Part shown: piece by piece, positions 9,878 to 57,111 of the stretch | How the letters are laid out: each line of letters begins with the position of its first letter | How positions within the stretch are numbered: position 1 is the stretch's first letter | Assembly: GCF_004137795.1 (NCBI RefSeq) | Contig: NZ_NWTM01000001.1 | Coordinates: 1,539,229-1,603,228 of the forward strand | Reading direction: 5' to 3' | From: Pectobacterium zantedeschiae | GTDB lineage: Bacteria > Pseudomonadota > Gammaproteobacteria > Enterobacterales > Enterobacteriaceae | Length of the DNA: 64,000 nt | Made by a program: the position numbers and the translations under genes | Notes under the pieces: model-generated | Database searches by the model: none | What the model was told of the DNA's origin: nothing | The model's input: only the letters and a program-made list of their open reading frames with translations

Positions 9878-12151
9878 TTAATTAACGCTTTCCGCTTTCC
9901 GCTTCTGCGCGCTTTGGAAGCCATAGGTCAGCTGTTGCGTCTCTTTATCCAGTTCCACCGTTACAGAACCACCATCCACCAGCGAACCAAACAGCAGCTC
10001 ATTGGCCAGCGGTTTCTTGAGGCTTTCCTGCATCACGCGCGCCATTGGTCGGGCACCCATCGCCTTGTCATAGCCTTTCTCTGCCAGCCAGTCACGCGCT
10101 TCATCGCTCACTTCCAGCGACACGCCTTTCGCGTCTAGCTGTGCCTGAAGTTCAACGATAAACTTATCGACAACCTGTTGGATAACATCGGTCGACAGAT
10201 GGTTGAACCAGATAATGCCATCAAGACGGTTGCGGAACTCCGGCGTAAACACCTTCTTAATCTCTTCCATCGCATCCGTACTGTTGTCCTGATGGATGAT
10301 ACCGATGGATTTACGCTGTGTTTCCCGCACGCCCGCATTGGTAGTCATGACGACAATGACATTGCGGAAATCCGCTTTACGGCCATTGTTATCTGTCAGC
10401 GTGCCGTTATCCATCACCTGCAACAGCAGGTTAAAGACGTCTGGGTGCGCTTTTTCGATTTCATCCAACAGCAGCACGGCATGAGGATGCTTGATCACCG
10501 CATCCGTCAGCAGACCGCCCTGATCGTAGCCCACATAGCCTGGAGGTGCACCAATCAGGCGGCTGACGGTATGACGCTCCATGTATTCAGACATGTCAAA
10601 GCGCAGCAGTTCGATATCCAGCGCTTTTGCCAACTGTAATGTCACTTCCGTCTTACCAACCCCCGTAGGGCCTGCGAACAGGAAGGAGCCTACCGGCTTG
10701 CGCTCCTGACCCAGTCCTGCACGGCTCATTTTGATGGATTCAGACAGCGCTTCGATAGCCTTGTCCTGCCCAAACACCAGCATTTTCAGGCGATCGCTGA
10801 GGTTTTTCAGCACATCACGATCGCTGGCGGAGACGGTTTTTTCTGGAATACGAGCGATACGGGCAACAACCGATTCGATGTCACTCACATTGACCGTTTT
10901 CTTGCGCTTGCTGACTGGCATCAAACGGCTTCTCGCGCCGGCTTCATCGATTACATCAATGGCTTTATCTGGCAGATGACGGTCATTGATGTATTTCACT
11001 GCCAGCTCTACTGCCGCACGAACCGCTTTTGACGTATAGCGAACATCATGGTGAGCCTCATACTTCGGCTTCAGACCATTAATGATTTGTATGGTTTCTT
11101 CCACGCTAGGTTCAGTGATATCGATTTTCTGGAAACGACGCGCCAACGCCCGATCCTTTTCAAAGATATTGCTGAATTCCTGATACGTCGTGGAACCAAT
11201 AACGCGGATCTTACCGCTGGAAAGCAGCGGTTTAATCAGATTAGCCGCATCAACCTGACCACCGGACGCTGCGCCAGCACCGATAATCGTGTGGATTTCA
11301 TCAATGAAGAGAATGCTGTTTTTATCCTGCTCTAGCTGCTTCAACAGTGCTTTGAAGCGTTTTTCAAAGTCACCGCGGTATTTGGTGCCTGCCAGCAGCG
11401 CCCCGATGTCCAGCGAGTACAGCGTGCACTCCGCCATCACTTCCGGCACATCGCCCTGCACAATACGCCAGGCCAGCCCTTCAGCAATCGCGGTTTTACC
11501 CACGCCGGACTCACCGACCAGCAGTGGGTTATTTTTACGGCGACGGCACAGTACCTGAATCGTGCGCTCCAGTTCTTTATCCCGGCCAATAAGCGGATCG
11601 ATACCGCCAACGCGAGCCAGTTGATTCAGATTGGTGGTGAAGTTTTCCATACGATCTTCCCCTCCTGCCTGTTCTTCATTGACGGGACTTTCAGCGTTCG
11701 GCGCCTGATCGGATTCTTCTTTGCGCGTGCCGTGAGAAATGAAGTTCACGACATCCAGACGACTAACGTCATGCTTACGCAGCAGGTAGGCGGCTTGGGA
11801 CTCCTGTTCGCTAAAAATTGCGACCAGAACGTTAGCGCCAGACACTTCACTGCGGCCGGAGGACTGCACATGAAAGACGGCGCGTTGCAGTACGCGTTGG
11901 AAGCTGAGCGTCGGCTGAGTTTCGCGCTCATCGTCACTCTGCGGTAATGTTGGAGTGGTCTGTTCAATGAAGGCTTCCAGCTCTTGGCGTAGCGCGGCTA
12001 AATCTACCGTGCAGGCTTCCAGTGCTTCACGGGCGGCCGGATTACTGAGTAGAGCCAACAGCAGGTGCTCCACGGTCATAAACTCGTGTCGGTGCTCACG
12101 CGCTCTGGCGAAAGCCATGTTGAGACTGAGTTCCAGTTCTTGATTGAGCAT
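9878..12151 (-). CDS. clpA: ATP-dependent Clp protease ATP-binding subunit ClpA
   Basis: ClpA is the AAA+ unfoldase that feeds substrates to ClpP. It has an N-domain (1 to about 145) that docks ClpS, then two ATPase rings: D1 Walker A GESGVGKT and D2 Walker A GPTGVGKT, with Walker B sites LFIDEIH and LLLDEIE. The ClpP-contact loop region, IGIIHQD, is present. I start at ATG 12151 (MLNQELELSLNMAFARA) as in E. coli; an upstream in-frame GTG would add five residues that overlap the GGAGAGG ribosome site. It lies 29 bases after clpS on the same strand. Confidence 0.98.
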   Translation of the reverse strand: MLNQELELSLNMAFARAREHRHEFMTVEHLLLALLSNPAAREALEACTVDLAALRQELEAFIEQTTPTLPQSDDERETQPTLSFQRVLQRAVFHVQSSGRSEVSGANVLVAIFSEQESQAAYLLRKHDVSRLDVVNFISHGTRKEESDQAPNAESPVNEEQAGGEDRMENFTTNLNQLARVGGIDPLIGRDKELERTIQVLCRRRKNNPLLVGESGVGKTAIAEGLAWRIVQGDVPEVMAECTLYSLDIGALLAGTKYRGDFEKRFKALLKQLEQDKNSILFIDEIHTIIGAGAASGGQVDAANLIKPLLSSGKIRVIGSTTYQEFSNIFEKDRALARRFQKIDITEPSVEETIQIINGLKPKYEAHHDVRYTSKAVRAAVELAVKYINDRHLPDKAIDVIDEAGARSRLMPVSKRKKTVNVSDIESVVARIARIPEKTVSASDRDVLKNLSDRLKMLVFGQDKAIEALSESIKMSRAGLGQERKPVGSFLFAGPTGVGKTEVTLQLAKALDIELLRFDMSEYMERHTVSRLIGAPPGYVGYDQGGLLTDAVIKHPHAVLLLDEIEKAHPDVFNLLLQVMDNGTLTDNNGRKADFRNVIVVMTTNAGVRETQRKSIGIIHQDNSTDAMEEIKKVFTPEFRNRLDGIIWFNHLSTDVIQQVVDKFIVELQAQLDAKGVSLEVSDEARDWLAEKGYDKAMGARPMARVMQESLKKPLANELLFGSLVDGGSVTVELDKETQQLTYGFQSAQKRKAESVN

Positions 12152-38902: not shown

Positions 38903-39009
38903 GAAATGTAAAAAATCGTCAATATTATTTTCTAAAAAATCAGAACTTTTTCTTTGATCTAAAGTCTGAGTAAGTGCCACTGCTTTTCTTTGATTCCCCT
39001 TATTGAGGA

Positions 39010-39058
39010 GCCCATCGTTCCCGCCTTTCAGGTTCAAGAACGATGGGCGTTTTCTTTT
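39010..39058 (+). terminator. Terminator after ybjL
   Basis: A perfect 11-base-pair stem (GCCCATCGTTC/GAACGATGGGC) with a 17-base loop is followed by GTTTTCTTTT. Confidence 0.8.
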
Positions 39059-45790: not shown

Positions 45791-45815
45791 AGGCACCTTC
45801 CGGTGCCTGATTTTG
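45791..45815 (+). terminator. Terminator after gstB
   Basis: An AGGCACC/GGTGCCT stem with a four-base loop is followed by GATTTTG, eight bases after the gstB stop. Confidence 0.8.
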
Positions 45816-45852
45816 CTGACAAAGTATGCAGAGCGGTGATAATGGGTAGATC

Positions 45853-45917
45853 GTAAAGACGCTGCAAGTACATCCCTGTAAGCTCGGATTGCGCCATCCA
45901 TGGCGCAAACGCTTTAC
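45853..45917. repeat. 65-base palindromic intergenic repeat
   Basis: The element is bounded by GTAAAG and CTTTAC, with an internal ACATCCCTGTAAGCTC and a perfect eight-base-pair TTGCGCCA/TGGCGCAA hairpin. Repeats with this layout are, to my knowledge, frequent in Pectobacterium and Serratia intergenic DNA. It lies between gstB and yliI. Confidence 0.7.
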
Positions 45918-47154: not shown

Positions 47155-47672
47155 AGCGTTGTCTCCATCCAACAAAAGTCCTGTAAATTTAGGCGGCAGG
47201 CGATGTTTGTGCAAAAAAAAAGTTACGACAAGCCAATAAGTGGAAGCTTTTGATCTCATGCCCACACGCTTCTATTTTGTTTGTTTACCATCTTTCTGAA
47301 ATTAGAGCTATTTAGAATCTACATCCTGATATTGCATGGAATATAGAAACCATTTCGAATTCAATTAAAAACATGCCAACACTCAGCAATGTGCATAAAA
47401 TGCGGTTGTTGAAATATTCATTTGCCACAAATATTAGCATAAGATACGATTTTTTCGTATCTATACAAAAAGGAATAAATTAAACCCACATAATTAAACA
47501 TCGAACAAAAAAAACAATAAGCCATTTACACCTACATCATGGTTAATTTTTCAAATCAATACAAAGCAATAAAAAACGCATCCATTAATAACGGTCAATT
47601 GTAAATCGTTCATTAACTTGAAGAGTCTGTGACGTACATCACATAAAAATCCTAATAGCAAGGAGTGCATAT
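47155..47672. other. AT-rich promoter region of the glycosyltransferase block
   Basis: This 518-base, strongly AT-rich region carries no gene. It contains an AGATACGA-N5-TCGTATCT hairpin (47442-47462) and the CRP-type palindrome at 47628-47643. The AT bias fits H-NS-silenced, acquired DNA, but that is inference. Confidence 0.55.
47628..47643 (+). promoter_or_regulatory. Perfect CRP-type palindrome before the first glycosyltransferase
   Basis: TGTGACGTACATCACA matches the CRP consensus TGTGA-N6-TCACA in all ten fixed positions and is itself a perfect palindrome. It ends 29 bases before the ATG at 47673, so it may lie around or downstream of the transcription start. Confidence 0.7.
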
Positions 47673-49523
47673 ATGGAACAACAAGGCCAAGATTTACTTA
47701 TTCCACACGATAGTTTATTACCACATCCTCCAGAAAATATTAGAATAGAATCAGTTATTCACCCTGTAAAAGAACATTATTCCAGTACACAACCACTTCA
47801 GGATATTCACTCGGAAGTATTTAAAATATTGCTCAATAGACATGATGCAAAGGAAGTGATTGAAATAATACGGCAGAGAATGCCAGAACTGACTTTAGCT
47901 CATGTGTCAGCCCACTATTTACAACTCTGCCTAATGTACGGTGCCGATCGCGGTGTGGCCAATCTGTTTCAGAAGATCAGAATGCGCTACAACCGAAACA
48001 CTCATAATGATCTTGTTAATGTCGCAACACGTTTGATTAACACCAGTTTCATGGACGAGGCTAATACGATTATTTTGCACTTATCGGAGTTCGCTAGTCG
48101 GCATCCCGCTCAACGTATCTTGCGCTTAAAATATCTATTTGCACTCGAACAGCTTGATGAACTGAGTTCAGTGTTTAAAGACATTCCCCTGAAAGATTAC
48201 CAAACGTCAGACGAGCTGCTTGCGCTTCGTATCAAATATGACTGTGTGATGGGGAATCCAGTAGCAGGTCTGGAATGGTTAATAGCCTTATCCCCCCTCA
48301 ACACGCTACCGCCTCTCTTACTCCGGTGGGCCGTGGATTGCATGACTACGCTGGAACGATACGAGGAAGCTATTCCCTTACTAGAAGCATCGCTTAGCCT
48401 TGATTTTTCCTATCAGAGGGACACTAAGCGCGTGCTGCGGGTGGCGGAAAAAACGGGGGAAACGCCCAGGCTGGTGCAGACTATCGAACACCTCCATGGC
48501 TGGTTTACCAGTCCTGATCTGGTCCGCTTGCGCACGACGCTGCTTCAGGCTTATACCACGTCCTACCCAGTTCAAACTAACGTCCCCCTTCCAACAGGCA
48601 ACTCTCAAACATTCGGTGATGTCCCTTTGTCGTTAGTGCCCCCCCTATCTGAATATGCCATATTTTTCTGTACAGATGCCGCGTTTAGTCTCCCGACCGT
48701 TGTAGCGTTAACGTCATTGGCGATGTCGATAGACTGCGCCAAGAATCCACCAGATATCTATATCTTTGTTCCACCCGAAATACATCCCCGTTGGGAACGT
48801 ATTGCCGATCGATTCTCAGCAACGTTTCAAGCCATAACGCTACGAATTGTATCAACATTACAGATGGAGCTGGATGAAAAACGAGCACATTTTGGTTTCT
48901 ATAGCGCGGGTGAGAAATTGAGTACAGCAGCCTACGCACGGTTCTACGCAAGCCGCTATTTACATCATATCGGCGTGGCCCGTGCACTCTATCTGGATTC
49001 TGATATTGTGATCCTGCATTCGCCCTTATCCCTGCTCTATGAGGATATGCAGGGGTTCCCATTGGCTGCACGCACTGACCGAAATAGTCCGCTGATAAAA
49101 CGTGCAATAAGACTACATCGGATTGCCAATAAGCGTTATTTCAATGCTGGAGTGCTGCTGTTTGACCTCACGCATCCGGCCACAATTTCTAACATTAATA
49201 CCGCAATTACTTATAGCGAACAAGGGGATAGCTCGTTGCTTTTCCTTGACCAATGCGCACTAAACAAAGCCATTTCGGGGCTTTATCTGGCGCTGGATGA
49301 GCGGTACAACAGATTCATGCCACCCAGTAGCCCAACACAAATGACGGTTGATGACACCATTATTGTGCATTTCATTGAAGCACCAAAACCCTGGCAAGCG
49401 GGCTACGCTGGACAAGGCCTCAAGCTATGGAATGAATACCAACGCCATGCGCTACGCATAGTCGGCGATGAGCTTTTTTGTTTTACCCCTCCCCGTCCCT
49501 CCGCGAAGGAAGACGGCTTTTAA
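47673..49523 (+). CDS. Tandem GT8-type glycosyltransferase 1 with helical N-terminal domain
   Basis: The 616 residues have two parts. Residues about 45-290 are alpha-helical, TPR-like (AHYLQLCLMYGADRGVANLF, RYEEAIPLLEASLSLDF). After a variable linker, residues about 325-600 form a GT8-type domain: AIFFCTDAAFSLPTVVALTSL, the metal/nucleotide-sugar DxD in LYLDSDIV (Asp 442, Asp 444), RYFNAGVLLFDL (489-500), LDQCALN (525-531) and IVHFIEAPKPW (His 566), where the usual Gly of HxxGxxKPW is absent. No signal peptide or membrane segment is seen, so it acts in the cytoplasm. Donor and acceptor are unknown. It leads three paralogues and an exporter. The AAGGAG site is good. Confidence 0.82.
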   Translation: MEQQGQDLLIPHDSLLPHPPENIRIESVIHPVKEHYSSTQPLQDIHSEVFKILLNRHDAKEVIEIIRQRMPELTLAHVSAHYLQLCLMYGADRGVANLFQKIRMRYNRNTHNDLVNVATRLINTSFMDEANTIILHLSEFASRHPAQRILRLKYLFALEQLDELSSVFKDIPLKDYQTSDELLALRIKYDCVMGNPVAGLEWLIALSPLNTLPPLLLRWAVDCMTTLERYEEAIPLLEASLSLDFSYQRDTKRVLRVAEKTGETPRLVQTIEHLHGWFTSPDLVRLRTTLLQAYTTSYPVQTNVPLPTGNSQTFGDVPLSLVPPLSEYAIFFCTDAAFSLPTVVALTSLAMSIDCAKNPPDIYIFVPPEIHPRWERIADRFSATFQAITLRIVSTLQMELDEKRAHFGFYSAGEKLSTAAYARFYASRYLHHIGVARALYLDSDIVILHSPLSLLYEDMQGFPLAARTDRNSPLIKRAIRLHRIANKRYFNAGVLLFDLTHPATISNINTAITYSEQGDSSLLFLDQCALNKAISGLYLALDERYNRFMPPSSPTQMTVDDTIIVHFIEAPKPWQAGYAGQGLKLWNEYQRHALRIVGDELFCFTPPRPSAKEDGF

Positions 49524-49704
49524 TAAACACTAACGCCTATCAACACCAGGGCGCTTCAAATCTTTTATCGATCTAATAGGCGCAGTCCCATCGAGACCGC
49601 GTCTGATACTAGTGCAGGTAGTACAACTACGGGCGGATACCGTTGGCCGTCATTTCATTGGGTGACAGTACCAACTCACGATATCCGCAATAGGGAGTGC
49701 AGAG

Positions 49705-51570
49705 ATGACGGCACAAGACAAGGATTTTTTTTTCTCACACCACACCAGAGGGCCCGTTGCACCACCCTTGGTTTCAGGTCATTTATCGGCTAGTCGAATA
49801 ACCGAGCCTTCGGCTGGCCTTACCATAACCGACACATTCCTCAATATTGAGATAAGCAGAATAGTGCTCAATTTGCACGATGCCAGTCGCACGTTTGCTG
49901 CACTGCAAACAAAGAACGCCAATGTTTCTCTGGGTGTTTTGACAGCTAGCTACCTGCAATTATGCCTCCGCTATGGTGCCGACCAAGGTGTCGCCCGCTT
50001 GCTAAAGAGCGTGCAAATGGCATACGTGCATAGCTGTTATCAGGCGCTGGTCGGCGTCGCAACTCGCCTAATCGACGCAGAGCTGATGTCAGATGCAGAG
50101 TCGGTCATTTCACATCTATGTGAATTCACTGGCCACACTTCAGATATCAAGATTCTCCGTTTGAAATTCATGCTTAAGACTGCACAGTTCGACGAGTTGC
50201 ACAGACAATTTGTCCGTATTTCTTTACGCGATTATCAGCTCAACACTGAGCTCCTTACACTACGTGTTAGATACGAGTGTATGACGGGACGGCCCGATAC
50301 AGGGCTAACATGGTTGGAGAAGTTAGGTCCTCTAAACACGTTACCTGTCGACCTCATGTGGTCTGCGGCACAATGCCTGAACGACCTCGGCAGATTTGAG
50401 GAGGCCTTGCCTTTACTTGAAACATGGCTCAGTCTCAATTTCTCTTTTAAGGATCACGCGGAACTGGTGCTGAATACGGCGTCAAAAAGCAGTGGCACCT
50501 TGAGGCTCGTGCGGGCTATCGAGGTATTACATGGCTGGTTCACTTCGCTCGATCTGTTACACCTGCGTAGCGCATTACTCCAAACAATTGAAGCACGCCA
50601 TTCTGCTCATGCGAAAGTTACTTCTGTTGATGAGCACCAAAGCACCAGAGAGCTAGCCTTCCCCTACGCCAACGACATGATATCCATGACAGCCTCAAGG
50701 CAAAGACACGCTATTTTCTTATGTGCTGATACCGCATATAACGTTCCAGCGCTGGTAGCGCTAACCTCATTGGCAATGTCGATTACACAGACTAAGGATC
50801 TCCCCGAAATTTACATGTTTGTTCTGCCTGAAACGCATGACATCTGGCTCCACATAGCACACTGCTTTGCCCAAAAATTTACGCTGACAGTGCAAATTGT
50901 GTCGACATTACAGATAAATCTCGATGAAAGCCGGGCGCATTACGGGTTTCAAAACTACGGCAAAATGCTGAGCATCACCGCGTACGCCCGGCTTTACGCA
51001 AGTCGCTATTTGCAAGAGTTAGGCATTACACGGGCATTGTATTTGGATTCCGATATTGTTGTGCGCCGTTCACCAACGAGTTTGCTGCATATGGACATGG
51101 AAGGATATCCACTCGCAGCACGTACTGAACGTACACACCCAAGAATCAGCCGCGCCATTAAGTTGCACGGTATTCCAAGTGGGCGCTACTTCAATTCCGG
51201 TATTTTACTGCTTGATTTCCAGCACCCAGCAACGCAATTAACAGTAAATTCGGCCATCGCTTATAGCGAGCAACTCGATAATAAACTGCTCTATCTCGAT
51301 CAATGCGCTCTAAACAAAGCCGTGCAGGGACTGTATCTGGATTTGGATGAAAGGTTTAACTGGTTCATTGTTCCTGACGATACGGCCCATCCTCAAGATG
51401 AGAATGCAACTATCGTGCATTTTATCAGTACGCCTAAACCTTGGGATCTTACCTACAGCGGTAGAGGAGCCGCACTTTGGGCTGGCTACAAGCACCATGC
51501 AATAGAGACAGTCAGCGAGGAGGTCTTTTATGCCATAAGCGAAGATCGCACTACGAGGGACACATATTAA
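49705..51570 (+). CDS. Tandem GT8-type glycosyltransferase 2 with helical N-terminal domain
   Basis: The 621 residues are colinear with the genes on both sides. The helical part (about 45-295) shows ASYLQLCLRYGADQGVARLL and RFEEALPLLETWLSLNF. The GT8-type part carries AIFLCADTAYNVPALVALTSL, DxD in LYLDSDIV (Asp 448, Asp 450), RYFNSGILLLDF, LDQCALN and IVHFISTPKPW. All catalytic-type motifs are kept, so the paralogue looks active rather than degenerate. The linker between the halves (about 295-335) is unlike that of its neighbours. It lies 181 bases after the first gene, with its own GGGAG site, and 65 bases before the third. Confidence 0.82.
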   Translation: MTAQDKDFFFSHHTRGPVAPPLVSGHLSASRITEPSAGLTITDTFLNIEISRIVLNLHDASRTFAALQTKNANVSLGVLTASYLQLCLRYGADQGVARLLKSVQMAYVHSCYQALVGVATRLIDAELMSDAESVISHLCEFTGHTSDIKILRLKFMLKTAQFDELHRQFVRISLRDYQLNTELLTLRVRYECMTGRPDTGLTWLEKLGPLNTLPVDLMWSAAQCLNDLGRFEEALPLLETWLSLNFSFKDHAELVLNTASKSSGTLRLVRAIEVLHGWFTSLDLLHLRSALLQTIEARHSAHAKVTSVDEHQSTRELAFPYANDMISMTASRQRHAIFLCADTAYNVPALVALTSLAMSITQTKDLPEIYMFVLPETHDIWLHIAHCFAQKFTLTVQIVSTLQINLDESRAHYGFQNYGKMLSITAYARLYASRYLQELGITRALYLDSDIVVRRSPTSLLHMDMEGYPLAARTERTHPRISRAIKLHGIPSGRYFNSGILLLDFQHPATQLTVNSAIAYSEQLDNKLLYLDQCALNKAVQGLYLDLDERFNWFIVPDDTAHPQDENATIVHFISTPKPWDLTYSGRGAALWAGYKHHAIETVSEEVFYAISEDRTTRDTY

Positions 51571-51635
51571 ACACCACCGATAGATCTCACGTTTAGTATC
51601 GATTTTAGAAAGCCAACAATACAAGGAACATAGAT

Positions 51636-53444
51636 ATGTCCAAACAGGATCGGAACTTAGTGCTGCCAAACCTCGCACTGCAACCAGAGAGACAATCAAC
51701 GTCTAATCCATCTTCTCTTACCAATAATGCATCACCTGAAGATATTCATGTAGCGATATTCAAAACACTTCTCAACCAGCATGATACTCGTGAGGTGCTG
51801 CTTGCACTCCAGCAGCAAACATCGCTTTCATCGGGAATTTTGGCCGCCAGTTATCTGAACATTTCCCTGCAATATGGTGCTGACAGTGCAACTGCCAGAC
51901 TTTTTAACAACGCGTCTATAGCCTACTCTTCTCGTAATTATGACGGCCTTGTCCACAGCGCAACCCGTCTGATTAATGCCGGGAGCCTAAAAGAAGCGAA
52001 TGCCATCCTTTCACATTTGTCAGAGTTTGCCGGCCAGCATCTCAATACTCGTATACTTTATTTAAAGTACCTATTTAGAGACCGGCGTTTAGACGAACTG
52101 CGCCAACAGTTCGAAAATATTCCAATTCGAGATTATAGGGTGTCTGAAGAACTTTTAGGGCTTCGTATCCGCTACGAGTGCGATATCGGTAATCCAGAAG
52201 CAGGGTTGGCATGGTTGACCGATCTTGGCGCATATGAAACGCTATCTCCTCGTCTTATCCAAAGTGCTATCTATTGCTTGATCAGTTTAGCGCGCTACGA
52301 CGACGTTGTTCCCTTGTTAGAAATCTGGCTCAACCTTGATTTTTCTTATCAGTACAACGCCAAACATATTTTGCTGGTTGCGACTCAGACAGGAGAAACA
52401 ATCAGGCTGATACGTGCCATAGAACAACTGCACGGTTGGTTTACTTCACCCGACCTGATCCGCTTACGGAGCGCACTAATAACATTAGATTCAACGCAAC
52501 AACGAATTCATAACGGGAACGACCAAGATCATAAACCAGAAAATACAGAGCAACAGGAACAATCTTCACTTGGTGTTCATCCTTCACCACTGCATACCGT
52601 TTCCGAAAGTGCCATTTTTTTCTGTACCGATGCAGAGTATACCGCACCAGCGATTGTCGCACTCATTTCGTTAGCGCTCACCATCGAACGTAGTGAAAAT
52701 TTACCAGATCTCTATATTTTCGTGTTACCGGAAACCCATAGCCTATGGGAACGTATTGCAGACAATTTCAACAAGGAATTTTCGTCTCTGACGCTACGAG
52801 TGGTCTCAACGTTGCAAATGCAACTTTCTCAATGCCGTACTAAGTACGGGTTTAACACTATGGGAGATGTACAGAGCACAATGGCATACGCTCGGATTTA
52901 TGCCAGCCGTTACCTATCCCAATGTGGTGTAGCCCGCGCCCTATATCTTGATTCAGATGTTGTTGTCCAATTTTCACCACTGCCGCTGTTATATATGGAT
53001 ATGGAAGAGTTCCCGCTGGCGGCGTGCAATGATCAGATTGACCCTCTGGTAGACAAAGCGATCAAGCTGCATGGTATCACTAATGGCCGCTACTTTAACT
53101 CTGGTGTGATGCTATTGGATTTCCATCACCCAGCTACATTACCCGCAATAGAAGCTGCGATTGCCTACAGTGAAGACACAGACAACTTACTCATTTTTCA
53201 GGATCAGTGCGCACTGAACAAAGCGATCCGTGGCCTCTATCTACCACTGGATAATAAATATAATTGCTATATGCCCCCAGGTCGGCCGGTGAGTGCAATT
53301 CATGAAAACGCCACTATTGTCCATTTCGTCAACACACCTAAACCGTGGCACCTGGCTTACTTAGGTCAGGGAGTAACACTCTGGTCCCGCTTTTATGACC
53401 ATGCCGTGCGTATTTTCGGGAAAGATATTTTCCTCTCTATCTAA
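51636..53444 (+). CDS. Tandem GT8-type glycosyltransferase 3 with helical N-terminal domain
   Basis: The 602 residues are the third paralogue. The helical part (about 36-285) shows ASYLNISLQYGADSATARLF and RYDDVVPLLEIWLNLDF. A Gln/Glu/His-rich linker (about 286-322) follows. The GT8-type part has AIFFCTDAEYTAPAIVALISL, DxD in LYLDSDVV (Asp 439, Asp 441), RYFNSGVMLLDF, QDQCALN and IVHFVNTPKPW. The AAGGAAC site precedes the ATG. It is followed 136 bases later by the exporter gene, suggesting that the sugar-modified product is exported. The substrate is unknown. Confidence 0.82.
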   Translation: MSKQDRNLVLPNLALQPERQSTSNPSSLTNNASPEDIHVAIFKTLLNQHDTREVLLALQQQTSLSSGILAASYLNISLQYGADSATARLFNNASIAYSSRNYDGLVHSATRLINAGSLKEANAILSHLSEFAGQHLNTRILYLKYLFRDRRLDELRQQFENIPIRDYRVSEELLGLRIRYECDIGNPEAGLAWLTDLGAYETLSPRLIQSAIYCLISLARYDDVVPLLEIWLNLDFSYQYNAKHILLVATQTGETIRLIRAIEQLHGWFTSPDLIRLRSALITLDSTQQRIHNGNDQDHKPENTEQQEQSSLGVHPSPLHTVSESAIFFCTDAEYTAPAIVALISLALTIERSENLPDLYIFVLPETHSLWERIADNFNKEFSSLTLRVVSTLQMQLSQCRTKYGFNTMGDVQSTMAYARIYASRYLSQCGVARALYLDSDVVVQFSPLPLLYMDMEEFPLAACNDQIDPLVDKAIKLHGITNGRYFNSGVMLLDFHHPATLPAIEAAIAYSEDTDNLLIFQDQCALNKAIRGLYLPLDNKYNCYMPPGRPVSAIHENATIVHFVNTPKPWHLAYLGQGVTLWSRFYDHAVRIFGKDIFLSI

Positions 53445-53580
53445 GATCCTATGCTAAGAAAGGTCTACCAGATTGAGCATAAAAGTAAACTTTCACGGAT
53501 TATCGAAAAATACAGCCAAGCCTGCTGTGATATATCAGAGCAGGCTACTTCCTTCAGGGATGAATATAAAAGAGGTAGGT

Positions 53581-55413
53581 ATGCTTTATCGTCGATTTGA
53601 GCAACTGATAGCTATTTTCCGCGATGCGCCAACAGATACCCCCCCAAATAGATTACGAGCCTTTTATTTTCACTATCTATATCAAGTCTGGCCAAGCTTC
53701 GTTGTACTATTAGTCGTAGGGGGAATTACCGCGCTTATTGATGTGGTGATACTCAGTTATTTAGGCCGTATTATCGATCTCATCCGCATCACTCCCAATA
53801 ACCGCTTCTTTAGTGAACATGGTAATGAACTTCTCTGGATGGCGACCCTTATGCTCGTCATTCATCCCTTTTTTATGGGATTACGTAACTTACTCACTAA
53901 TCAATCGATTAACCCTTGTATGACGAACATGATTCGATGGCAGAATTATAATGTTGTACTCAAGCAGAGCCTGAATTTCTTTCAAAGTGATTTTGCCGGA
54001 CGGATCGCACAACGCATTATGCAAACAGGAGGAGCACTACGTGACTCAGCTGTTCAGGCGGTCTCTGCTATTTGGCATGTGCTGATTTATATATTAAGTA
54101 CGCTGTTTCTGCTGTCAGAAATGGACTGGCGTTTAATGTTAATACTTATTATCTGGGTAGCATTATACATCGGCTGTATCCGCTATTTCGTGCCACGGGT
54201 CAAGGCACGGACTATTGAGTCAACAGAGGCCAACTCAAAACTCATTGGGCGTATCGTTGATGGCTATACCAACATTTTCACTTTGAAGTTATTTTCTCAT
54301 ACCATGCTTGAAACTCGCTATGTTCGGGATGCAATGGAAGAACAAACGCATAAAATGCAGATGGCCAACCGTGTACTCACCAGTATGGATCTGGCAATCA
54401 TCATGCTGAATAATCTGTTGATCATCGGTAGTATCGGTTTTGCGCTATGGCTCTGGACGCAATCCTTGCTAAGCGCTGGCGCGATCGCGATAGTGACCAG
54501 TTTAATAATTCGTATCGCAAATATGTCAGGGTGGATCATGTGGGTGATGAATAGCATCTTCGAAAACCTTGGTATCGTACAAGAAGGCATGAAGACAATT
54601 TCTCAACCTATTGGCATTACCGATAAAGTAGATGCTCCGTCATTGAATATACAGAATGGCGCTATCACCTTTGAGCAGGTTAATTTTCGTTACAACACCT
54701 CACACCACATCATTGAAGAATTCAATTTTTGCATCAGGCCTGGGGAAAAAATTGGTCTCGTCGGGCCCTCTGGAGCAGGTAAGTCAACGTTGGTCGGATT
54801 GCTTCTTCGCCTTTATGACCTGCAAAGTGGAAGTATCCTCATCGATAACCAGAATATTGCCGACGTGACACAAGAAAGTCTGCGGGAGCAAATCGGGATG
54901 ATTACACAAGATACCTCGCTGCTGCACCGCTCGATACGCGATAACCTGCTGTACGGTAAATACAACGCCACTGATAAAGAGTTGATGCAAGCACTGAGGA
55001 ATGCACAAGCAGATGAATTCATCATGCAAATCGCCGATTCACAAGGTCGTTCAGGACTAGATGCACATGTAGGAGAACGGGGTATCAAATTATCGGGAGG
55101 TCAGCGTCAACGTATTGCCATCGCACGCGTATTGCTGAAAGATGCCCCTATTTTAGTGATGGATGAGGCAACATCAGCACTGGACTCGGAAGCAGAGGCC
55201 GCTATTCAGGATAATCTGGATATATTAATGAAAGGAAAAACCGTTATTGCTATCGCCCACCGCCTATCAACCATCGCCAAAATGGATCGTCTGGTGGTAA
55301 TGCAACAGGGAAGAATTGTCGAAGTAGGAAACCATACCGATTTATTGGCACGAGAGGGGGTATATGCCCGTTTGTGGCGGCATCAAACGGATGGGTTTGT
55401 CGGGATAAGCTAA
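53581..55413 (+). CDS. Fused ABC exporter (permease-ATPase) of the glycosyltransferase block
   Basis: This is a half-transporter of the MsbA/Atm1-like exporter type. From ATG 53581 the 610 residues have a six-helix permease (about 38-330) and an ATPase with Walker [10 protein letters not shown] (395-403), Q-loop MITQDTSLL, signature LSGGQRQR (504-511), Walker B ILVMDEATSALD and switch IAHRLST. The start is chosen for its AGAGGTAGG site and because MLYRRFEQLI is the typical beginning of this family; a TTG frame opens 36 codons earlier without homology. A homodimer is expected. Direction is inferred as export; the cargo is unknown, and linkage to the three glycosyltransferases suggests a glycosylated product. 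Confidence 0.85.
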   Translation: MLYRRFEQLIAIFRDAPTDTPPNRLRAFYFHYLYQVWPSFVVLLVVGGITALIDVVILSYLGRIIDLIRITPNNRFFSEHGNELLWMATLMLVIHPFFMGLRNLLTNQSINPCMTNMIRWQNYNVVLKQSLNFFQSDFAGRIAQRIMQTGGALRDSAVQAVSAIWHVLIYILSTLFLLSEMDWRLMLILIIWVALYIGCIRYFVPRVKARTIESTEANSKLIGRIVDGYTNIFTLKLFSHTMLETRYVRDAMEEQTHKMQMANRVLTSMDLAIIMLNNLLIIGSIGFALWLWTQSLLSAGAIAIVTSLIIRIANMSGWIMWVMNSIFENLGIVQEGMKTISQPIGITDKVDAPSLNIQNGAITFEQVNFRYNTSHHIIEEFNFCIRPGEKIGLVGPSGAGKSTLVGLLLRLYDLQSGSILIDNQNIADVTQESLREQIGMITQDTSLLHRSIRDNLLYGKYNATDKELMQALRNAQADEFIMQIADSQGRSGLDAHVGERGIKLSGGQRQRIAIARVLLKDAPILVMDEATSALDSEAEAAIQDNLDILMKGKTVIAIAHRLSTIAKMDRLVVMQQGRIVEVGNHTDLLAREGVYARLWRHQTDGFVGIS

Positions 55414-55782
55414 ATCTGGCGTAAAACACAACCGGAAGGCACAGCCACTAACAGATATCGCTTCTACCCTCCACGCTTCTGGCTACTGGCCTTAATGATT
55501 CGCTACAATTTCGCCGGAAAACGGAAAAAGTGAGTCCTCCCTTTCATGCCTGTCACTTAAGGCCATTTTTAAGATAAATATGGGGACAGGTTCGCAGGAA
55601 CACCTCTCCCCGTAGTCTCACTGAGTCTCTCAGTGCTTAAACGCACGGTATTCGCCCCTACGTCCCGTGGGCAAAAAACCCCATTGTTATCGCTTTCTCC
55701 CTCATCTTCTTATAGGCATTTGATGTTGACATCGGTACAATCGCTGCCCTAACGAACATAACTTTGACTATTTTTTATCCTT
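55414..55782 (+). other. Gap before rimO with promoter
   Basis: No gene is seen in these 369 bases. A sigma-70-like promoter, TTGACA (55726-55731) and TAACGA (55750-55755) with an 18-base spacer, lies just before rimO. The E. coli gene bssR, found at this place, is absent. Confidence 0.5.
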
Positions 55783-57111
55783 ATGAGCAATATCGCCCCC
55801 CCACAACCACGTATCGGCTTTGTTTCCCTTGGTTGCCCGAAAAACCTCGTCGACTCCGAGAGGATTCTGACCGAACTGCGTACTGAAGGTTATCAGGTCG
55901 TGCCACGTTATGACGACGCTGAACTGGTTATCGTCAATACCTGTGGTTTTATTGACAGCGCCGTACAAGAGTCGCTGGAAGCTATCGGCGAAGCGCTGAA
56001 TGAAAACGGCAAAGTCATCGTGACAGGCTGTTTGGGCGCCAAAGAAAATCAAATACGCGAAGTGCATCCTAAGGTTCTGGAAATTACCGGTCCGCACAGC
56101 TACGAGCAAGTGCTGTCACACGTTCATCAATATGTCCCTAAACCGACGCACAATCCGTTTACCAGTCTGGTTCCCGAACAAGGTGTGAAACTCACACCAC
56201 GTCATTATGCATACCTGAAAATTTCAGAAGGCTGTAACCACCGCTGTACGTTCTGCATCATTCCTTCCATGCGTGGCGATTTGGATAGCCGGCCGATCGG
56301 TTCGGTACTGGATGAAGCGAAACGTCTGGTCGATGCTGGAGTAAAAGAGCTGCTGGTGATTTCGCAAGACACCTCGGCATACGGTGCTGATGTGAAGCAG
56401 CGTACCGGTTTTTGGAATGGCCAACCGGTCAAGACAAGTATGGTCAGCCTATGTGAGCAACTGGCCTCGCTGGGTGTGTGGGTGCGCTTGCACTATGTCT
56501 ACCCTTACCCACACGTAGACGATGTGATCCCATTAATGGCCGAAGGGAAAGTTCTGCCTTATCTGGACATTCCGCTCCAACACGCCAGCCCGAAGATCCT
56601 CAAGCTGATGAAGCGCCCGGGCGCGGTAGAAAGAACGCTGGAGCGCATTAAGCGCTGGCGCGAAATTTGCCCTGATTTAACGCTGCGATCTACCTTTATT
56701 GTCGGCTTCCCCGGCGAAACGGAAGAAGACTTCCAGATGCTGCTCGACTTCCTGAAAGAAGCCAAACTTGACCGTGTAGGCTGTTTCAAATTCAGCCCGG
56801 TCGAAGGCGCAGCGGCTAATGAATTGCCAGGTCAGGTGCCGGAAGAAGTTAAAGAAGAACGTTTCCACCGCTTCATGCAGCTTCAGCAGGCAATCTCCAC
56901 CCAGCGTTTGCAGGATAAAATTGGCCGTGAAGTGCTGGTGCTGATCGATGAAATCGACGAAGAAGGTGCGATTGGACGCAGCATGGCCGATGCGCCAGAG
57001 ATAGACGGTGCGGTTTACCTGAACGGAGAAACTGGCGTAAAAGTCGGTGATATCGTCAAAGTAAAAATCGAACATGCTGACGAATACGATCTGTGGGGTA
57101 GCCGCGTTTAA
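55783..57111 (+). CDS. rimO: Ribosomal protein S12 methylthiotransferase RimO
   Basis: RimO is a radical-SAM enzyme that methylthiolates Asp 89 of ribosomal protein S12. The 442 residues contain the N-terminal methylthiotransferase domain ([29 protein letters not shown] with its three [4Fe-4S] cysteines), the radical-[11 protein letters not shown] motif (about 149-156) and a C-terminal TRAM domain (from about 375). The ribosome site is weak. As in E. coli it neighbours the yliI region. Confidence 0.97.

Follow-up and report, generated by a model that had tools for sequence, protein, structure and literature searches.

The window analysed here, 64,000 nucleotides of Pectobacterium zantedeschiae DNA (G000:C3:1539229-1603228, within a 5.06-Mb genome), carries between yliI and rimO a cassette of four genes: three tandem paralogous glycosyltransferase (GT) genes, which we call GTa, GTb and GTc, and a fused permease-ATPase of the ATP-binding cassette (ABC) exporter type. 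The cassette is real, narrowly distributed and mobile, and its enzymes have an unusual architecture in which a solenoid resembling tetratricopeptide repeats (TPR) precedes a catalytic domain of family GT8. Among the genomes sampled, a TPR-like solenoid joined to GT8 in a three-copy cassette was seen in none outside Pectobacterium. The explanation we favour, with somewhat less than even confidence, is that the three enzymes would assemble, on one acceptor that is probably soluble, a short alpha-linked glycan, and that the co-inherited exporter would carry this product or another molecule from its pathway.

Results

An initial annotation, made from the letters of the window alone, had described three consecutive genes of 602-621 residues with one architecture, and this description holds. 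GTa (47673..49523, 616 aa), GTb (49705..51570, 621 aa) and GTc (51636..53444, 602 aa) are open reading frames (ORFs) on the + strand that match the Pfam family Glyco_transf_8 at 95, 109 and 112 bits, against a gathering threshold of 24.3. Their catalytic domains span residues 330-575 (48660..49397, +), 337-581 (50713..51447, +) and 327-572 (52614..53351, +), respectively. The motifs LYLDSD, FN[AS]G and DQCALN are common to all three proteins as first described, and only the spacing of the fourth had to be corrected, from HF-x4-PKPW to HF-x3-PKPW. The GT8 hallmarks (DxD, FN[AS]G, DQ and H-to-KPW) are conserved without change in all 12 proteins aligned, the A/S of FN[AS]G excepted. No GT41 model was found among the Pfam matches of the three proteins at E<=1, and the catalytic domain is GT8. 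GTb and GTc are 46% and 50% identical to GTa over their whole length (45-52% by other alignments), and the similarity covers both halves, the N-terminal half included; the three genes are therefore products of gene duplication and not of chance resemblance. When the window is compared with P. aroidearum, dN/dS of the four block genes is 0.14-0.25, which points to purifying selection on all of them. The proteins are acidic and, having no clear membrane anchor, look soluble. A weak match of GTc to Nol11_C (14.6 of 25 bits) was set aside. The first 500 bp of GTa (window 47673-48170) are 93.6% identical to positions 10000-10500 of the P. aroidearum L6 locus (L005), and later GTa bins 78-83%, which suggests that the 5' end of the gene may be constrained or recombined.

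The initial annotation had proposed structure prediction and had missed the N-terminal domain altogether, as it had missed how narrowly the cassette is distributed and that its insertion site varies, both described below. An AlphaFold2 model of the GTa N-terminal domain (47787..48563, +) has 16 helices, with a mean predicted local distance difference test score (pLDDT) of 89.4 and a predicted template modelling score of 0.80, and forms a solenoid in which helix-turn-helix repeats of ~34 residues follow one another in tandem. The corresponding domain of GTb (49816..50610, +) was placed by alignment to the modelled domain and has TPR_4 and TPR_14 matches below cut-off. That of GTc (51732..52520, +) was placed from a model of the full protein, in which residues ~40-260 mostly have pLDDT of 73-92, with one 10-residue block at 65. 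By sequence the repeats are weak: no Pfam TPR model scored above gathering, one of the three full-length window proteins matching TPR_4 (17.5 of 27 bits) and TPR_14 (16.6 of 23.5 bits), and TPR_14 appeared in 4 of the 6 N-terminal parts searched, with a best E of 0.0015. We therefore call the domain TPR-like. The second fold searches returned tied rows, and for this reason we name no single closest fold; 8qoy occurs in both structure-match lists.

Several known enzymes share one or other half of this build. Of the solved structures, LgtC and the Anaerococcus GT8 enzyme 3tzt match best by sequence, and both are also among the top structural matches; they share with the C-terminal domains the DxD, FN[AS]G, DQ and H-to-KPW set, but the solved chains have only 276-311 residues, whereas the window enzymes add a TPR-like solenoid of ~260 residues. 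LgtC has a C-terminal membrane tail, of which the window proteins show no sign. O-GlcNAc transferase (OGT) likewise carries a TPR superhelix ahead of a glycosyltransferase on one chain. Its catalytic family, however, is GT41, which has the GT-B fold, and it gave no Foldseek match at E<=0.001; the OGT TPR domain ranked second at E 7e-3, a weak result, since TPR folds are common and widely alike.

The cassette is restricted to a few genomes. The samples of order, family, phylum and class overlap in part, and the counts that follow refer to samples. Full-length enzymes of this type occur in 4 of 25 genomes of the genus, with three copies in each, and the exporter (E<=1e-100) occurs in the same 4 of 25, only beside these enzymes. 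The co-occurrence of the four genes, which the initial annotation had put forward as a check, is thus borne out. Tandem GT8 genes of other Pectobacterium genomes matched in the catalytic part only, in frames of 181-371 residues. Beyond the genus, the TPR-like half matched none of 397 other phylum genomes at E<=0.01, 1 of 393 other order genomes (E 1.9e-4, positions 14-162 only, in an 892-aa frame) and 3 of 391 other family genomes at E<=0.01; with the full-length profile at E 1e-20 there was no match in 368 other class genomes. Four weak matches of the TPR-like half (G1017, G869, G924 and G090) were dropped as non-orthologous: that in G1017 (E 9.6e-6) falls across two genes which, from their protein sequences, we take to be nuoA and nuoB, and contains an internal stop; that in G869 (E 0.002) lies at an ORF resembling a thioredoxin-TPR protein; and that in G924 covers 72 positions at E 0.009. 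In a scan of named genomes with two short peptide patterns, P. aroidearum L6 was the sole relative. Plasmid records searched with GTc gave 50 matches, at 28-31% identity among the 20 of 50 listed, chiefly in the GT8 part. A phage origin was rejected, with no relative confirmed in the viral contigs scanned and 7 phage records matching GTa in the GT8 part only, at 24-33% identity among the matches listed.

All four carriers have the four genes together between yliI and rimO. The variable segment extends from 47220 to 55802 (no strand assigned): alignment of the flanks with near-empty sites stops at 47219 (L065-L067) and resumes at 55803 in 8 of 8 sites compared. We fetched the site from 20 of 21 non-carriers, leaving out G020. 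In 8 of these yliI and rimO are ~165-200 bp apart, in 9 the spacing is ~1.2 kb, and in 3 there is no rimO within the 7.5-7.9 kb fetched; no block gene was found at >60% identity at the site in any of the 20, and in these Pectobacterium non-carriers the segment is missing or has other contents in its place. Other contents were noted at this site. The 1.2-kb inserts include a Zeta_toxin-like ORF (L056 74-595, by Pfam, and a similar ORF at L060 7191-7682), and the three large inserts, in other Pectobacterium genomes (L052, L053 and L059), have a biosynthetic-looking cluster upstream of yliI, which in L053, the only one searched against Pfam, has acyl-CoA reductase, AMP-binding/PCP and amine oxidase domains and an acyltransferase just under cut-off.

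Comparison of the carriers points to movement of the cassette as a unit. When P. aroidearum L6 is set against G004, a carrier of another species, the 500-bp bins across positions 10000-18499 of L005 are 97.4-99.2% identical and full flank bins 86.6-94.0%, and synonymous divergence (dS) is 0.019-0.031 in the block versus 0.27-0.29 in rimO and sanA. The block is far closer than its flanks, and we therefore conclude that the four genes crossed species together, a pattern of divergence that indicates recombination or transfer of the whole unit. The window shares 93.8-98.6% identity with P. aroidearum L6 in the YliI, RimO and SanA proteins encoded in the flanks, and between the two the block dS (0.32-0.68) is of the same order as flank dS (0.52-0.75), which marks their split as an old one. 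A tree of the yliI locus groups the four carriers with a support of 1.000 (one inner node has 0.657), but because this locus adjoins the block we do not take the tree as proof of a single gain.

The fourth gene (53581..55413, +, 610 aa) has the ABC_membrane and ABC_tran domains of Pfam, in agreement with the permease/ATPase fusion of the initial annotation. The ORF at its full extent is 53473-55413 (+), but the ATG at 53581 is the most likely start because the P. aroidearum L6 ORF begins at the matching ATG, because the annotated coding sequence of a relative at locus L106 starts there, and because the stretch before 53581 has indels between carriers. By exact primer match and gene order, the L106 gene is PA3228 of Pseudomonas aeruginosa; it is 64% identical to the window protein over 609 residues, and the two start sites show 2 differences in 20 bases. 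Among the matches listed for the order, six besides the gene itself are 64-68% identical and the next at most 49%. NCBIfam models for MsbA (340 of 602 bits), PRK11176 (283 of 867) and PglK (186 of 1000) all scored below their cut-offs.

One block gene has a published history. GTc is the orthologue of P. aroidearum PC1_1675, a Glyco_transf_8 gene of 1809 bp chosen as a marker for loop-mediated isothermal amplification (LAMP), described as present in no other GenBank sequence and positive in 24 P. aroidearum strains (PMC6514923). This is the only trace of the block that we found in print: a search by locus name gave no other publication, and in the sections of that paper that present the marker, PC1_1675 is a species marker whose function is given only as 'glycosyl transferase' and whose neighbours are not described (PMC6514923). 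The LAMP primers F3, B3, LF and LB are exact in L005, within GTc. Primers of this P. aroidearum test (inner primers left out) match without mismatch in genomes of three different species (G024, G003 and G004), with one mismatch of loop primer LB in L022, so that the test may not be species-specific.

Further features of the block and window were noted. The CRP consensus is TGTGA-N6-TCACA, and a perfect putative box of this kind lies at 47628..47643 (+), 29 bp before the GTa start codon; it is the sole one in the window, where 0.06 would be expected, and it is perfect in L005 and L022 with one mismatch in L023, which suggests that the block may be under carbon-source control. The GC content of the block genes is 44.7-48.3%, versus 50.1% for the window. 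By Rfam, the window also holds the small RNAs RybB (38979-39056) and Ysr224 (45809-45915).

Discussion

We suggest that this cassette of four genes, which moves horizontally among a few species of Pectobacterium, encodes three soluble, cytosolic, retaining glycosyltransferases. With an LgtC-type active-site set, the C-terminal GT8 domains are predicted to use DxD and a metal ion in the transfer of hexoses from nucleotide sugars, and the N-terminal solenoids could hold the acceptor or partner enzymes. The enzymes would act successively on one acceptor, yielding the short alpha-linked glycan, and the PA3228-type transporter would export either that glycan product or something else from its pathway. 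Since no membrane anchor was seen, we slightly prefer a soluble acceptor, either a protein or a metabolite, to a membrane lipid. A role in glycan export is plausible, and the joint movement of the exporter with the glycosyltransferases speaks for some shared role. The initial annotation's proposal that the transporter exports the product is thus supported by co-inheritance and joint transfer, but it is weakened by what is known of the exporter's relatives.

Those relatives are the first of several points that count against our explanation. The exporter family is common, with matches (E<=1e-100) in 187 of 295 genomes of the order, that of the window included. We opened ten relative loci, namely the six order relatives at 64-68% identity and four plasmid loci at 57-64% (4 of 664 plasmid records); none of the ten has a match to the window glycosyltransferases (tblastn E<=1e-3) within ~8-10 kb. 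The L106 locus has one annotated, unrelated glycosyltransferase family 1 gene ~7 kb upstream. The initial annotation had named homologues regularly found singly and apart from the exporter as grounds for abandoning its proposal; among the genomes sampled, full-length enzymes keep to the four carriers, and the exporter relatives at the ten loci stand without them. Deletion of PA3228, above all in a PA3225 deletion background, raised susceptibility to several drugs, and its operon is shared with PA3225-PA3227, none of them a glycosyltransferase in the account given of that operon (PMC5527654). No other result weighs more heavily against the glycan-exporter idea of the initial annotation. Other points are that the gap between GTc and the ABC gene is 136 bp, that dN/dS between the nearly identical copies of L005 and L023 is 0.16-0.44 on few changes, that the model of full GTc has a mean pLDDT of only 61 and is poor in the catalytic half, and that the three paralogues may use different acceptors instead.

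The main rival, which we hold to be unlikely, is cytosolic protein glycosylation, in which the TPR-like solenoids would dock proteins as in OGT, GT8 would add the sugars, and the ABC gene would be an unrelated neighbour. The union of repeats and a catalytic domain on one chain recalls OGT, with the weakness of the Foldseek match already stated. Structural matches to the GT-A domain include glycogenin, UGGT, Skp1 galactosyltransferase and GlyE, all of which act on proteins. The acidic, apparently anchorless enzymes and the wide occurrence of the ABC family without them fit as well. However, the ABC gene moved with the glycosyltransferases and within the genus is found only beside them, and the block offers no other protein-coding gene as a target. 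No ORF of at least 15 residues is common to the four carriers in the GTa-GTb, GTb-GTc and GTc-ABC gaps, in line with the initial annotation's remark that the block lacks an acceptor gene; a hidden precursor peptide was rejected on this result. Outside these gaps, two short ORFs of partial similarity precede GTa and six follow the ABC gene, but none was convincing.

We regard as rather improbable the proposal that the enzymes decorate a surface glycan, extending a lipid-linked, lipopolysaccharide (LPS) or exopolysaccharide precursor, with the ABC protein as a PglK- or MsbA-like flippase or exporter. The best NCBIfam match of all three glycosyltransferases is the LPS 3-alpha-galactosyltransferase model PRK15171 (WaaI/WaaJ type), the same genome has a GT8 protein above the cut-off of that model, and the ABC protein does score against the MsbA-like and PglK models. 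TPR domains also occur in capsule polymerases (PMC5974469, PMC11666461), and Cps3D, Cps7D and Cps7C, which are capsule polymerases or transition transferases, combine such a domain with glycan-making ones, the TPR of Cps3D/Cps7D being needed for linker elongation (PMC11666461); the recurrence of 8qoy in the structure lists belongs here too. Against this, the PRK15171 scores are 35.9, 42.3 and 42.5 bits versus a cut-off of 461, while the family member that passes it, at 483 bits, lies on contig C7, away from the yliI-rimO block. The initial annotation had named a described LPS or polysaccharide locus as grounds for refuting its proposal; the block is not the LPS core locus, and an LPS core or O-antigen locus was rejected. 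The Cps proteins have TagF-like, GT-B or nucleotidyltransferase domains within a capsule cluster and are not GT8 trios. None of the four genes is an initiating transferase, polymerase, ligase or sugar-nucleotide gene, and the ABC scores fall far short of their cut-offs; with no partner genes and low model scores, a capsule or PglK-type flippase locus was likewise rejected.

Modification of a small molecule followed by efflux seems to us quite improbable. Here the enzymes would attach sugars to a metabolite, which might be a defence compound of the plant, and the glycoside would leave the cell through a drug-type ABC pump. PA3228, the closest studied relative of the exporter, has been proposed by its authors to be a multidrug efflux pump (PMC5527654), and P. 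aroidearum is a soft-rot pathogen of konjac (PMC6514923). The CRP-type box ahead of the block is also compatible with this proposal. GT8 enzymes, however, are not known for small-molecule detoxification, a task usually done by GT1, and a set of three large solenoid-bearing enzymes would be an odd choice for it. Anti-phage defence was rejected: the glycosyltransferases had no PADLOC match at E<=0.01, and matches of part of the ATPase half of the ABC protein to mad3 (E 3.6e-30) and mad8 (1.5e-6) were taken as ATPase similarity. A flagellin glycosylation island was rejected by location, the neighbours being yliI and rimO and not the fliDC/fliAZ loci where such islands lie (PMC4875605); the flagellin literature gave no function for the block.

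Returning to the explanation that we favour, a bolder form of it is one we put forward as a speculation more likely wrong than right: that the cassette is an assembly line of TPR-scaffolded GT8 enzymes, so far seen in one genus of plant pathogens, which would equip a soluble protein or metabolite with an oligosaccharide of defined structure and pass it to a dedicated drug-type ABC exporter in the same self-contained unit, and so would represent a new class of bacterial glycosylation machine. If active, the three enzymes would offer a compact, movable system for learning how a repeat solenoid sets the acceptor choice of a GT8 enzyme. Clade-specific traits can usefully be sought at the yliI-rimO site, whose contents are by turns near-empty, zeta-toxin-like, biosynthetic or glycosyltransferase, and the enzymes may account for a trait, displayed on the surface or secreted, by which the P. 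aroidearum group differs from other soft-rot bacteria.

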